NCBI RefSeq assembly: GCF_011764425.1
Contig: NZ_BLPF01000001.1
Coordinates: 3,029,001 to 3,093,000, forward strand
Reading direction: 5' to 3'
From: Phytohabitans houttuyneae
Lineage (GTDB): Bacteria; Actinomycetota; Actinomycetes; Mycobacteriales; Micromonosporaceae
Length of the DNA stretch: 64,000 bases
The position numbers and the translations under genes were made by a program. The notes below the pieces were generated by a model. It did not search any database, had not been told where the DNA came from, and was given only the letters and a program-made list of their open reading frames with translations. Positions 56,955 to 61,397 of this stretch are shown in pieces; within the stretch, counting starts at the first letter, position 1; each line of letters opens with the position of its first letter.

Positions 56955-58157
56955 TCAGCTCGGCTTGGGCCCGGTGATGGCGGGTCGCTCGGTCGTGCCG
57001 AGGTAGAAGATGCCCGGCAGCGTCTCGAACTTGTCGCTCGGGTTGCGCCGCAGCGTGGAGTTTTCCAGCCGCAGGCTCCCGGTGCGGTCGTTGCTGACGA
57101 AGAAGACCGCGCCGCCACCCTCGCGGGCGTGGTTGCGCTCCATGAGCGTGCCGGCGATCCGCACGGTGAAGAGCCCACCGTCGAAGTACATCGCGCCGCC
57201 GTTGCCACCGCCGGGCGTGCCCGCCGGTGCCTGGTTGGCGCCGAAGCCGATCGCCTCGTTGTGGCTGAACAGGCTGTTGAGCACGATCCACGAGACGCCG
57301 ATGCTGCTCAGCGCACCACCGTTAGAGCAGCGCCCGCCCTGGCCGGATGCGCCGCCGAAGGTGCTGCTCACGATGTACACCGGGCCGTCGTTGTTGATGT
57401 CGAGCGCGCGGATGGCCGCGCCGCCGAGGTCGGGGCCGCCGCTGTCGCACTTGTTGCGGACGAACTTGGTGTTTACCACCTTGAAGATGCCGCCCCGCAC
57501 GTAGAGCGCGCCGCCGCCACCGCCGTTGGTCACCTCGGGGTCGGGGTCGACGCCGATGGAGCTGCCGTCGGCGAGCGTGATGTTCTGCACGGTGAGCTGG
57601 GGGTGGTCCTGCGCGGTGCAGTTGCCGCTGGTCGCGCCCTGCGCGCTGTCACACGTGTTCTGGTAGATGATCCGGCGCTTGCCGGCACCGCTCAGGGTGA
57701 CCTTGCCGCCGCCGTCGATGACCACCTTGCGCACGGAGCTCCTGACCTTCGCGGTCTGCGACATCGTGATCGTGACCGGGTCCGGCCCGCACGAGAACGT
57801 GATCACCCCGCCCGCCGCCACCGCCGACACCACGGCCTTGGACGTGCAGCTCGCCGGCGTGCCGTTACCCACCACACGGTCGGGCTTGCTGGTGTCCACC
57901 GCGCGCCCCGCGGCCGGCACCGACGCCTTGCCGTTGGGGTTGCCTGCGCGCAGCACGGCGGCCGGCGGCTTCTTCGAGGCGGGCGGCTTTGTCGTCGGCG
58001 CGGCACCGAGCGCACCCTTGCCGTCCGGCGCCTCGCTGGCCGCCGCGCCGCCCTCCGTCGCTCCGGGCGGCGCCGGGTTGTCACCGCCCGTGTCGCCACC
58101 ACCACACCCGGCAAGGAGGGCGGCGACCAGCAGCAACGATCCGGCTCTCAGGCGCAC
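56955..58157 (-). CDS. Lipoprotein with right-handed beta-helix domain, linked to RiPP operon
   Basis: A 400-residue exported lipoprotein. The lipobox LLAGC has its Cys at residue 18. A Pro/Ala/Gly-rich stretch (about 19-95) precedes a parallel beta-helix (about 105-380) with repeating GGGGALYV, GGAAIRALD, GGALSSIG, GGAMYFDGG and GGGAVFFV turns, like pectate-lyase-type or polymorphic outer-wall beta-helix repeats. Several Cys could form disulfides. The GTG at 58157 lies only 9 bp after the HEXXH gene stop on the same strand, so it is the fourth gene of the RiPP operon. Function unknown: a carbohydrate or wall target, or an immunity/anchor role, are guesses. Confidence 0.78.
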   Translation of the reverse strand: MRLRAGSLLLVAALLAGCGGGDTGGDNPAPPGATEGGAAASEAPDGKGALGAAPTTKPPASKKPPAAVLRAGNPNGKASVPAAGRAVDTSKPDRVVGNGTPASCTSKAVVSAVAAGGVITFSCGPDPVTITMSQTAKVRSSVRKVVIDGGGKVTLSGAGKRRIIYQNTCDSAQGATSGNCTAQDHPQLTVQNITLADGSSIGVDPDPEVTNGGGGGALYVRGGIFKVVNTKFVRNKCDSGGPDLGGAAIRALDINNDGPVYIVSSTFGGASGQGGRCSNGGALSSIGVSWIVLNSLFSHNEAIGFGANQAPAGTPGGGNGGAMYFDGGLFTVRIAGTLMERNHAREGGGAVFFVSNDRTGSLRLENSTLRRNPSDKFETLPGIFYLGTTERPAITGPKPS

Positions 58158-58166
58158 CCGCCGAAT

Positions 58167-59930
58167 CTAGCGGCTCGCCGCCGTCCCGTCGGTCCCCCGT
58201 ACGGGCACGAGCCACCGAGCCAGTGCGATCGGGTCGGGCGGCGATTCGCCGGATTCGCGTAGGTGGCGGTGCACCGCGAGACACAGCTCCGGAAAGTCCA
58301 GCAGCCTCGGCTCCTGCCGCTGGCAGGCAAGCGACAGGCCGATCCAGGCATCGAGACGGTCCGGGTCCGCGGCCACCTCGGCCGCGTAGGCATCGCGCGC
58401 TGCCGCGAGATCTCCGCCGGCCAGCGCGAGATCCGCGGGCGTCGCATTTGGTACGAGGCTCGCCAGTCCCGCCGGGTCGGACACGAGACCCGCGAAGCGG
58501 CTCGGATCGAGCACGCGCAGCTGGACGAGGTCGAGCCGCACGCTCTGCGCCAGCGCTCGCGGCCTCGGCTCCACGCCGATCTCCACCGTCTCGACCGGAC
58601 AGTCCAATCCGGACCGCCACGCGTCAGCCAGCCGTGCCACGGCCTCCGGCGCGGGGCGGGCGTTGCGCAGCCGCCAGCCGACCCAGTGGTCCTCGGCCGC
58701 CTCGCGGGCCAGCTCGACCGTCCCGGCCGGCGCCGGCTCCGCCTGCCAATCGCGCTGCACCGCGCGCAGCCGGGACAGCAGGTGCCGCCCCACCGCGGTG
58801 AAGCGGTCCGACTCCTCCAGCACCCCGAGCGTGCGCCACACGCGGTCGCGCCACCGCACGAACTCCACCTGCGCGTACCGCGCGCGTCCGCCGCTGAGCA
58901 CCCGCCGCTGCACCCGCCAGAAGTCGGTCACGCCGTGAAACGCGTACACCCCTTGGAGCAGCGCGCCGAGCGGCCGGGGGTCGTCGCGCCAGGGTGCGTA
59001 GTAGCGGGGCCGGTCGTCGCGCTCGTACAGCGGCACGAGGTCGATGAGCGCGCCGAGCTTCGCGTGCTGGAACTCGTGCAGCAGCCCCACGGCGAGCGCG
59101 ACGCCGTCGGCCGGCCGGGTCAGCGACACCGCCCCGAACGCGTCCATGCTCGTCACGTTGACGCCGAGGTTGGTCCGCTCGGTGTGCAGCGGCACCAGCG
59201 TGACGAGGCCGGTCGCAATCGCCTCGGCGTACCGGCGGTGGTGTGCGGTAAGCATCGGCCACGCCTCGTCGAGCAGGTGCTGCCACCGCTCGACCTCCGC
59301 GCCGCCGCACCGGCCGGCCGCTGACAGGCGGTGGCAGTCGCGGAACGGGTCGATGTCGTCGAGGCGGACCCGCAGCTCCAGCTCGTCGGCCTTGCAGTGC
59401 AGGACGCGAAGCTCCTGCCAGCCGGTGCCGGCACCGGCGACCACCGAGCCGACCGTGAGGCGCCCACCGGCGTGGCGCACGGCGACGTCGCCCTCGCCGC
59501 TCACCCGTGCCCGGCCGAGCGTGGGCAGCATCAGCCAGCCGTCCCTGGCCAGAAGGTCCACTGTGAACTCCAGCCCGGCCCGGACCGCCGCCGCCGCGGC
59601 GACTGCCCCGAGGTGCGCCAGGTCGGCCTCGATCGGGTGCGCCCCGCTCCAGGCGCCACGCAGCCGCCGCAGCGACGACGCCAGCCACGCGCCGACGTGC
59701 GGCTCGGCCAGCGCATCCGTCACCGCGCCGGGCGAGCGGCGCTGCGCGTCGACCAGCAGCGCGTAGTAGTCGTCGAGGCGGGGCGAAGGTGCGGCGTCGA
59801 GGAGCGTGCGGAGCAGCAGCAGCCGCTTGCTCACCTGGCCGGCGCGCAACCGGCCGATGGCCTCGGCGTCTCCGTACCCCGCGCCGAGCGAGTCCACCAT
59901 GGACTGTGTGAGGCTGTGCACGGCTGTCAT
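58167..59930 (-). CDS. HEXXH-motif RiPP-associated enzyme (fxs-type)
   Basis: A 587-residue protein with HEFQH at residues 285-289 (LLHEFQHAKLG), the motif that defines the HEXXH family found with fxs radical-SAM genes. A C-terminal region (about 520-560) has TPR-like helices (DLAAARDAYAAEVAADPDRL). The fold is unlike classic proteases: recent work on RiPP HEXXH proteins describes 2-oxoglutarate/iron-dependent beta-hydroxylation rather than proteolysis, so the motif probably binds iron. ATG 59930 overlaps the radical-SAM stop by 4 bp (ATGA). It probably hydroxylates or otherwise edits the cross-linked precursor. Exact site unknown. Confidence 0.85.
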   Translation of the reverse strand: MTAVHSLTQSMVDSLGAGYGDAEAIGRLRAGQVSKRLLLLRTLLDAAPSPRLDDYYALLVDAQRRSPGAVTDALAEPHVGAWLASSLRRLRGAWSGAHPIEADLAHLGAVAAAAAVRAGLEFTVDLLARDGWLMLPTLGRARVSGEGDVAVRHAGGRLTVGSVVAGAGTGWQELRVLHCKADELELRVRLDDIDPFRDCHRLSAAGRCGGAEVERWQHLLDEAWPMLTAHHRRYAEAIATGLVTLVPLHTERTNLGVNVTSMDAFGAVSLTRPADGVALAVGLLHEFQHAKLGALIDLVPLYERDDRPRYYAPWRDDPRPLGALLQGVYAFHGVTDFWRVQRRVLSGGRARYAQVEFVRWRDRVWRTLGVLEESDRFTAVGRHLLSRLRAVQRDWQAEPAPAGTVELAREAAEDHWVGWRLRNARPAPEAVARLADAWRSGLDCPVETVEIGVEPRPRALAQSVRLDLVQLRVLDPSRFAGLVSDPAGLASLVPNATPADLALAGGDLAAARDAYAAEVAADPDRLDAWIGLSLACQRQEPRLLDFPELCLAVHRHLRESGESPPDPIALARWLVPVRGTDGTAASR

Positions 59931-61081
59931 GCCGGCCGCTTCAGCCGCTCGACATCCGCGCGCAGCCGGTCCGCCGCATGGGTGATGAGCCGCTGCAGGT
60001 CGGCGCAGTAGACCGACGGGTTGCCGAACCCACCACCGGGTCGGTAGCGGTGCGGGTAGTAGCCGCCGCCGCAGACCCGGTGCAGCGCGCACGAGCGGCA
60101 GGTGGCGGAGAGCGCCGCCACGCCGATCTGGCGCGCCTTGACCGCCGGGTGGCGCAGCGCCTCGTCGAGATCGTTGGCGAAGACGTCGAGCCCCGTGTCC
60201 ACCGCGCCCGGGTACGCCGAGCGGAGCGTGTCCACCTGCTCGTAGGAACCGTCCACATTGACCACGAGCGTGGCGACCGGGCTCAGTCCCACCACCTCGG
60301 TGTGGCTCTGTCCACCCAGGACGAGGTTGAGCACCTCTTCGAAGAAGCGCACGCGGGTCTCCCGCACCGGCGCTCCGTACCACCTGTCGAAGGCGGCCAC
60401 GAGCCACTCGCCGTAGGGCGCATCCGCTCCACCGCCCCAGCCGGGTGGCGGGCTGCCCCAGTTGGCGTGGGGCAGCAGAAAGTCGACCATCGGCGGCTGG
60501 TAGGCCAGCAGCGCCTCGTAGGTGGCCACCGGGTCGTTGGCCAGGTCCACAACGGACAGGATTCCGGCGTACGCGGCGGGGCGGTCCCGCAGGCGTCGCA
60601 ATGCGGCGTCGACCGCGTCGAAGCTGCTGCGCCCGTTCGCGTACCGGCGGTGGCGGTCGGTCGCGACCCGGTCGCCGTCGAGTGAGACACCGACCCGGAT
60701 GCCCGCACCGGAGAGCACCTCCAGCGCGTCGGCGGTCAGCAGCACGCCGTTCGTCTGCACGAGAACGTCCACTGTGGTCGGCGCCGGCACGCGGGCGCGC
60801 AGGCGGTCGGCGACCCCGGCGAGCCGGTCGGCGCCCAGCAGCATGGGCTCGCCGCCGTGCAGCACGACGCGCAGCTGCGGGATGCCGTGCGCCGTGGCGT
60901 GTTCGGCGATCCGCCGGCAGGCGGCGTCGAGCACGTCGTCGCTCATCACCGCGGTCGCCGCGCGCCAGCTCTTGTCGGCCAGCTCGTACATGTAGCAGTA
61001 GTCACAGGCGAGGTTGCAGCGCGAATGCACCTTCAGGACGAACTCCCGGAAGGGAGTCGGCCGCCAGGTGATCCCGCGCAT
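59927..61081 (-). CDS. FxsB-family radical SAM/SPASM cyclophane synthase
   Basis: A 384-residue enzyme. The radical-SAM cluster motif CNLACDYC has Cys22, Cys26 and Cys29, followed by YMYELADKSWRA, typical of FxsB. HGGEPMLLG is the SAM-binding GGE motif. The C-terminal SPASM-type Cys set includes CRSC, VCGGGYYPHRY and YC, for auxiliary iron-sulfur clusters. FxsB enzymes form a three-residue cyclophane by joining an aromatic side chain to a residue two positions later in the precursor. It starts 5 bp after the precursor stop and is coupled to the HEXXH gene by ATGA. Confidence 0.93.
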   Translation of the reverse strand: MRGITWRPTPFREFVLKVHSRCNLACDYCYMYELADKSWRAATAVMSDDVLDAACRRIAEHATAHGIPQLRVVLHGGEPMLLGADRLAGVADRLRARVPAPTTVDVLVQTNGVLLTADALEVLSGAGIRVGVSLDGDRVATDRHRRYANGRSSFDAVDAALRRLRDRPAAYAGILSVVDLANDPVATYEALLAYQPPMVDFLLPHANWGSPPPGWGGGADAPYGEWLVAAFDRWYGAPVRETRVRFFEEVLNLVLGGQSHTEVVGLSPVATLVVNVDGSYEQVDTLRSAYPGAVDTGLDVFANDLDEALRHPAVKARQIGVAALSATCRSCALHRVCGGGYYPHRYRPGGGFGNPSVYCADLQRLITHAADRLRADVERLKRPA

Positions 61082-61086
61082 GCCGC

Positions 61087-61260
61087 TCAGCCGATGGCGG
61101 CGTTCCAGCCGGCGACCGCGTCCTGTGGGCGGTCGATGTCGTCGAGGATGCGGCGCAGCGACTGGCCGAACGCGGAGCCGTCGAGCCCGCGTAGGTCGAC
61201 CAAACTGATCGCATTGAGATCAATAAGGTCAAACTGGCTGTCGTCGGCGGTGGCATCCAT
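61087..61260 (-). CDS. Fxs-type RiPP precursor with atypical GWNAAIG terminus
   Basis: A 57-residue peptide from ATG 61260 (61 from ATG 61272). The leader has the fxs pattern (FDLIDLNAISLVDLRGLD, then SLRRILDDIDRP). The expected FxSxx C-terminal pentapeptide is absent: it ends DAVAGWNAAIG, so Trp replaces Phe, Ala replaces Ser and one extra Gly follows. W-N-A could carry a Trp-Ala cyclophane; that is inference. It is first in a tight operon with the radical-SAM, HEXXH and lipoprotein genes and divergent from thrC. The start is uncertain: neither ATG has a well-spaced ribosome site. Confidence 0.82.
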   Translation of the reverse strand: MDATADDSQFDLIDLNAISLVDLRGLDGSAFGQSLRRILDDIDRPQDAVAGWNAAIG

Positions 61261-61397
61261 CCCGGCCGGCATCCCTCTGTGGACGATATTGCGTGTCGAC
61301 GGCAGTCCAGCCGGACAGCGTCCTTGGCGTCGCCAACCTACTCCGCCGTTCAGTCAACGTCCAGACACGACGGTGCGTGTCGAGCGAAGATTGCCTG

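Follow-up and report, generated by a model that had tools for sequence, protein, structure and literature searches.

The 64,000-nucleotide stretch of Phytohabitans houttuyneae contig NZ_BLPF01000001.1 analysed here (positions 3,029,001 to 3,093,000; the window) carries a three-gene locus of the fxs type for a ribosomally synthesized and post-translationally modified peptide (RiPP), encoding an FxsA precursor that ends in GWNAAIG, an FxsB-type radical SAM/SPASM enzyme and an HExxH enzyme. As judged from its sequence, the locus is a real, intact fxs (triceptide-type) operon that departs only modestly from a known kind. Within the aligned core, only a Ser-to-Ala replacement and an added Gly are unusual relative to its own clade. 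By analogy with related maturases, we lean towards the view that this is a genuine operon whose predicted product is a Trp-Cbeta(Ala) cyclophane with an additional hydroxylation and that it was vertically inherited.

The three genes lie head to tail on the minus strand, from 61272 down to 58167, in the order precursor, FxsB and HExxH gene. They are tightly spaced, with five bases between the precursor stop codon and the ATG of FxsB and an ATGA in which the end of FxsB overlaps the beginning of the HExxH gene. In NCBIfam profile searches, all three proteins exceeded the respective cut-offs: 33.9 bits against 28 for the precursor (TIGR04268, FxSxx-COOH), 477.6 against 370 for FxsB (TIGR04269) and 171.2 against 40 for the HExxH protein (TIGR04267). 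The locus is, therefore, an fxs system, as had been proposed in an earlier reading made from the letters alone (the sequence-only reading). FxsB matched the solved structure of ChlB (9gm3) with an E value of 4.7e-84, and its CNLACDYC (CxxxCxxC) motif and C-terminal SPASM cysteines aligned with those of ChlB. The HExxH protein matched PDB entry 22nu (E=1.1e-50) and ChlH (8s5f; E=9.2e-9), the HExxH motif and a PWRxDxRP block lining up with both. The HExxH motif was present in all 12 aligned relatives (HEFQH in 11 and HEWQH in one) and likewise in ChlH. The scores and the structure matches together indicate that the observation is more than chance. ChlB and ChlH, the latter from Chlorogloeopsis sp., are homologues of both enzymes but have a different precursor. 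The order of precursor, FxsB and HExxH-motif gene was kept in 15/15 related loci (11 with Trp-type and four with Phe-type precursors). With the PADLOC anti-phage library, FxsB gave viperin-type matches only, the best at 36.8 bits.

Translation confirmed the non-canonical terminus described in the sequence-only reading: the tail of the precursor reads DAVAGWNAAIG followed by TGA, so that a protein scoring above the TIGR04268 cut-off lacks the literal F-x-S-x-x-COOH ending. That reading had taken the Trp for an anomaly and the departure from FxSxx for something exceptional, and neither view held up. The 14 FxsB enzymes ranked next after that of the window (L013-L026) were collected from 354 genomes of the family. 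The precursor just upstream ended in GWNSAM or GWNSAI in 11 of these loci, which are all 11 other members of the window's FxsB clade, and in GFTSAI or GFQSAI in the remaining three. When 70 FxsB enzymes with assigned precursors were placed on a tree, the window FxsB was sister to the 11 Trp-type (WNS) enzymes with support of 99/97. As the sister precursors all carry GWN, Trp and Asn are common to the clade. These Trp-type operons of Micromonospora and relatives (L013, L014, L016-L021, L023-L025) share the trio and the GWN core with the window, and their FxsB enzymes are 61-68% identical to its own (10 of the 11 aligned). They differ in ending in WNSAM or WNSAI and in being convergent to an FxsT gene, neither of which applies to the window operon.

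The 70 rows of this census were drawn from 122 distinct FxsB domains; the 52 left out comprised 50 without an FxsA-like open reading frame (ORF) at E≤0.01 and two with an unparsable end. Many rows were recruited by similarity to the FxsB or precursors of this very clade, and Trp is, hence, over-represented. The aromatic core residue was Phe in 51 rows, Trp in 15 and His in four (two of the His assignments, L046 and L149, are doubtful), while the third core position was Ser in 50, Asn in 15 and Ala in five. Two residues followed the third position in 40 of the 70 rows, and a literal FxSxx end was present in only 21, FxA ends and other tail lengths being found in other fxs loci. Outside the window, a third-position Ala occurred in 4/69 rows, all of them Phe-Ala and requiring at least three changes on a tree that does not separate gain from loss, most simply as three gains; Trp-Ser also required at least three changes. 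One Phe-Ala case, L070 of Actinorugispora endophytica (AGFEAVI), shares the third-position Ala and the gene order with the window but has Phe rather than Trp, lacks the extra residue and lies on another branch of the tree. The Ser-to-Ala replacement and the added Gly are most simply explained as changes of this lineage. Other endings were also seen. Streptosporangium fxs precursors L068 and L075 (near 11600) end in VAGHQSSV, with His for Phe, and those of Nocardiopsis (L052, L057, L061, L063, L064, L069 and L077) end in AGFVNDPE, an FxN core with three more residues, and form their own clade.

A misread 3′ end of the precursor, a concern raised in the sequence-only reading, was not borne out, as this end shares its frame with the homologues as far as the last Ile. 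In L018, the distance from the precursor stop to the aligned FxsB Met is about 50 bases, compared with five here. A small 3′ deletion, removing the old stop codon and exposing the next one, would explain the extra Gly, and the difference in gap length suggests such an origin. At the other end of the gene, the homologues suggest that the true start is more likely the second ATG, at 61260, giving a precursor of 57 amino acids.

In the proposed chemistry, FxsB would bind the conserved leader of the precursor, abstract a Cbeta hydrogen of Ala58 and bond this carbon to the Trp56 indole to form a Trp-Asn-Ala cyclophane of three residues; the alpha-ketoglutarate (alphaKG)-HExxH enzyme would then hydroxylate a residue in or near the ring. 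The cross-link is predicted from the precedents of MscB, OscB, XncB, HaaB and ScaB, radical SAM enzymes that join an aromatic ring to the Cbeta of the i+2 residue. According to the accessible text of PMC11002830, the bond made by MscB runs from Phe C4 to Ser Cbeta, Trp is the residue linked by OscB and XncB, and HaaB and ScaB connect C2 of His with the Cbeta of Ala. A Trp-Ala cyclophane, as put forward in the sequence-only reading, is thus a natural prediction, although the pairs given for these triceptide maturases in that text are Phe-Ser, Phe-Asn, Trp-Asn/Asp/Arg and His-Ala, with no mention of Trp-Ala. Nor was a Trp-Ala cyclophane mentioned in the accessible text of the other literature searched, subscription papers being outside this coverage. 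Hydroxylation is expected here because ChlH hydroxylates Asp and His (accessible text of PMC12636437). The middle Asn had been named earlier, along with other nearby residues, as a possible hydroxylation site. As a general site it was rejected, since the middle core residue is Val or Gly in loci with an intact HExxH motif (L052, FVN; L100, FGN). Gly has no beta carbon. A link between the middle residue and the presence or absence of the HExxH gene was also considered and dropped because the rows offered no contrast: every row with an HExxH match has the motif, and the rest are mostly short loci.

Among six genomes of the genus searched, a strong precursor match was obtained in the window's own genome only. 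In G003, a genome of this genus, the operon is missing; both operon flanks are contiguous there, at ~82-89% identity, and an in-frame remnant of the 3′ end of the HExxH gene (RWLVPVRGTDGTAPSH) is kept at the empty site. RWL is found near the C-terminus in the HExxH frames of 9/12 relatives. G004 aligned on the threonine synthase side only. The scar in G003 points to an operon that was once present there and was then deleted, the most likely course of events. A recent horizontal insertion into the window's lineage was, hence, rejected as unlikely, and vertical descent of the operon within its Micromonosporaceae genus is most likely. A putative lipoprotein gene with an LLAGCGGG lipobox (window 56955-58157, minus strand) lies directly downstream of the operon and is kept in the operon-less G003.

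The separation of the operon from FxsC and FxsT is more interesting than its Trp. In all 15 related loci, a large gene convergent to the HExxH gene was detected by homology. In the three loci scanned, this gene encodes the TPR protein of FxSxx-COOH systems (FxSxx_TPR or FxsT; NF040586, 954-1006 bits in NCBIfam), and Pfam searches with two such proteins revealed NB-ARC and TPR domains in both and a TIR domain in one. FxsC adjoins the FxSxx_TPR gene in two relatives scanned, and an FxSxx_TPR-like gene was present in the available flanks of 70/80 named loci. Such peptides have been linked to AP-ATPase and TIR conflict systems (accessible text of PMC7159879, eLife). The absent partner in the window, a broken FxsC/FxsT copy elsewhere in the genome and the scar in G003 are aspects that go beyond the sequence-only reading.

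Several observations weigh against the view that the operon makes the predicted product. The FxSxx_TPR gene was not found in the 64-kb window, and the nearest match on the contig is ~285 kb off. The FxsT of this genome that is closest to the Trp-type clade (59-72% identity) is found on contig 4, fragmented by three frame changes, beside an FxsC gene with one. The search for other Trp-plus-Ala ends advocated in the sequence-only reading recovered the two residues separately, Ala in the four Phe rows and Trp throughout the clade, but the pair is confined to the window (1/70 rows). The precursor departs at 4/24 columns invariant in the 11 Trp-type relatives, each of whose precursors departs at no more than one of 20-21 columns. 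The Ala Cbeta C-H bond is also stronger than that of Ser, and reactivity may be lost. With the loss of the operon from G003, where only the HExxH scar is left, the absent and broken partner genes and the changed precursor columns would fit relaxed constraint. The fxs system would then be breaking down in this genus, with a displaced and broken FxsC/FxsT half and a precursor core that is starting to drift, so that WNAAIG would be a worn-out substrate with poor modification or none. We regard this as possible but doubtful. Both enzymes are intact, FxsB departing at 2/130 and the HExxH protein at 3/131 of the columns invariant in 12 relatives (the FxsB comparison is without the Trp-type relative L021, that of the HExxH protein without L196). 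When compared with Trp-type relatives only, they depart at 9/168 and 18/202 columns, between the values for G036 (8/167 and 8/192) and G025 (17/176 and 21/205), indicating that neither stands out as decaying. The precursor (4/24) appeared to have changed more than the enzymes (5/261; Fisher p=0.004, rising to 0.02 when the extension column is excluded), but this comparison was unfair, as the enzyme columns had been chosen over a wider set including Phe-type relatives and were, hence, stricter. When Trp-type relatives were used on both sides, the enzymes departed at 27/370 columns and the excess lost its significance (p=0.11; with the extension column excluded, p=0.40). A faster-changing precursor was therefore discarded as an artefact of unequal row sets. 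On these numbers, the precursor cannot be said to outpace its enzymes, and the case for decay is left with the missing partner and with the operon loss in G003. The aligned FxsT and FxsC pieces on contig 4 have no in-frame stop, although one TAG falls in a longer reading, and they are about as similar to the relatives as intact orthologues are. These features imply that the breaks are either very recent or assembly indels; as far as the sequence goes, recent decay and assembly error are both possible sources. A crude frame scan, which misses the FxsC change and one FxsT change, found no unexplained frame change in the 64-kb window, two in the 19 kb of L209 and two across five other contig-4 stretches totalling 100 kb.

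Three further explanations were considered, all with little probability. The terminal Gly could be a processing signal, the HExxH enzyme oxidising or cleaving the C-terminus to leave an amidated WNAAI. The HEXXH enzymes PflC and PosC do generate an amide terminus by oxidative backbone cleavage (accessible text of PMC12636437), but the C-terminal ARMD motif that they recognise is not present here, all 11 Trp-type relatives keep the HExxH gene without having the Gly, and the short gap to FxsB suggests that this residue arose through a 3′ deletion; amidation is, hence, very improbable. A sequencing or annotation artefact at the precursor 3′ end is hardly to be expected either. Since the window holds the sole strong precursor match among the genus genomes, this end is uncheckable against a close relative, but the frame of the homologues is kept to the last Ile, the Ser-to-Ala replacement requires no indel and the downstream enzymes are intact. 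It is also conceivable, though unlikely, that fxs systems act in NLR-like surveillance, with the cyclophane peptide acting on the TIR/NB-ARC/TPR protein FxsT as its ligand or its brake. The Ser and the free C-terminus would then be read by FxsT rather than required by FxsB, and the break in FxsT would have freed the peptide here to become a Trp-Ala cyclophane with a C-terminal Gly. All four Phe-Ala rows have an FxSxx_TPR-like gene nearby, which argues against a general need of FxsT for Ser. An intact, vertically inherited operon with a predicted Trp-Ala product is, thus, the reading to which we incline. The features are collected in Table 1.

Table 1. Features of the fxs operon in the window and of the FxsC/FxsT genes on contig 4
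Feature	Position	Strand	Basis
FxsA precursor, 61 aa, ends AVAGWNAAIG	61087..61272	-	TIGR04268, 33.9 bits; alignment with 13 homologues
FxsB-type radical SAM/SPASM cyclophane maturase (predicted), 384 aa	59927..61081	-	TIGR04269; ChlB 9gm3
alphaKG-HExxH-type peptide hydroxylase (predicted), 587 aa	58167..59930	-	TIGR04267; PDB 22nu; ChlH 8s5f
HEFQH metal-binding motif of the hydroxylase	59064..59078	-	computed position; alignment with relatives and ChlH
Precursor C-terminal W-N-A-A-I-G, predicted cross-link Trp56-Ala58, extra Gly61	61090..61107	-	translation
3′ end of the HExxH gene, counterpart left as scar (RWLVPVRGTDGT..stop) in G003	58167..58219	-	
Clade-type FxsC and FxSxx_TPR genes, four frame changes	L209:7565-12856		contig without any FxsB match

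Four further FxsB genes were observed on contig 1 of the same genome (L184, L185 and L186). Two of them share a locus close to two FxSxx_TPR matches free of internal stops, one is accompanied by a precursor-like ORF ending in LSAFSSFLDES (E 0.02), and one encodes a fused radical SAM-HExxH protein of 796 amino acids.

The window operon resembles other actinobacterial fxs systems (TIGR04268/TIGR04269/TIGR04267) in its trio, gene order and above-cut-off scores but has a W-x-A-x-x-G end in place of the F-x-S-x-x core and no FxSxx_TPR gene at the locus. If FxsB accepts Ala, the product would be a cyclophane between Trp and Ala, a pair that the accessible text of PMC11002830 does not mention, and, if true, a heteroatom-free acceptor, known for His-Ala, would be extended to a Trp substrate. 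The locus also provides a natural comparison of fxs operons with and without an NLR-like partner and, hence, bears on the role of these widespread peptides.

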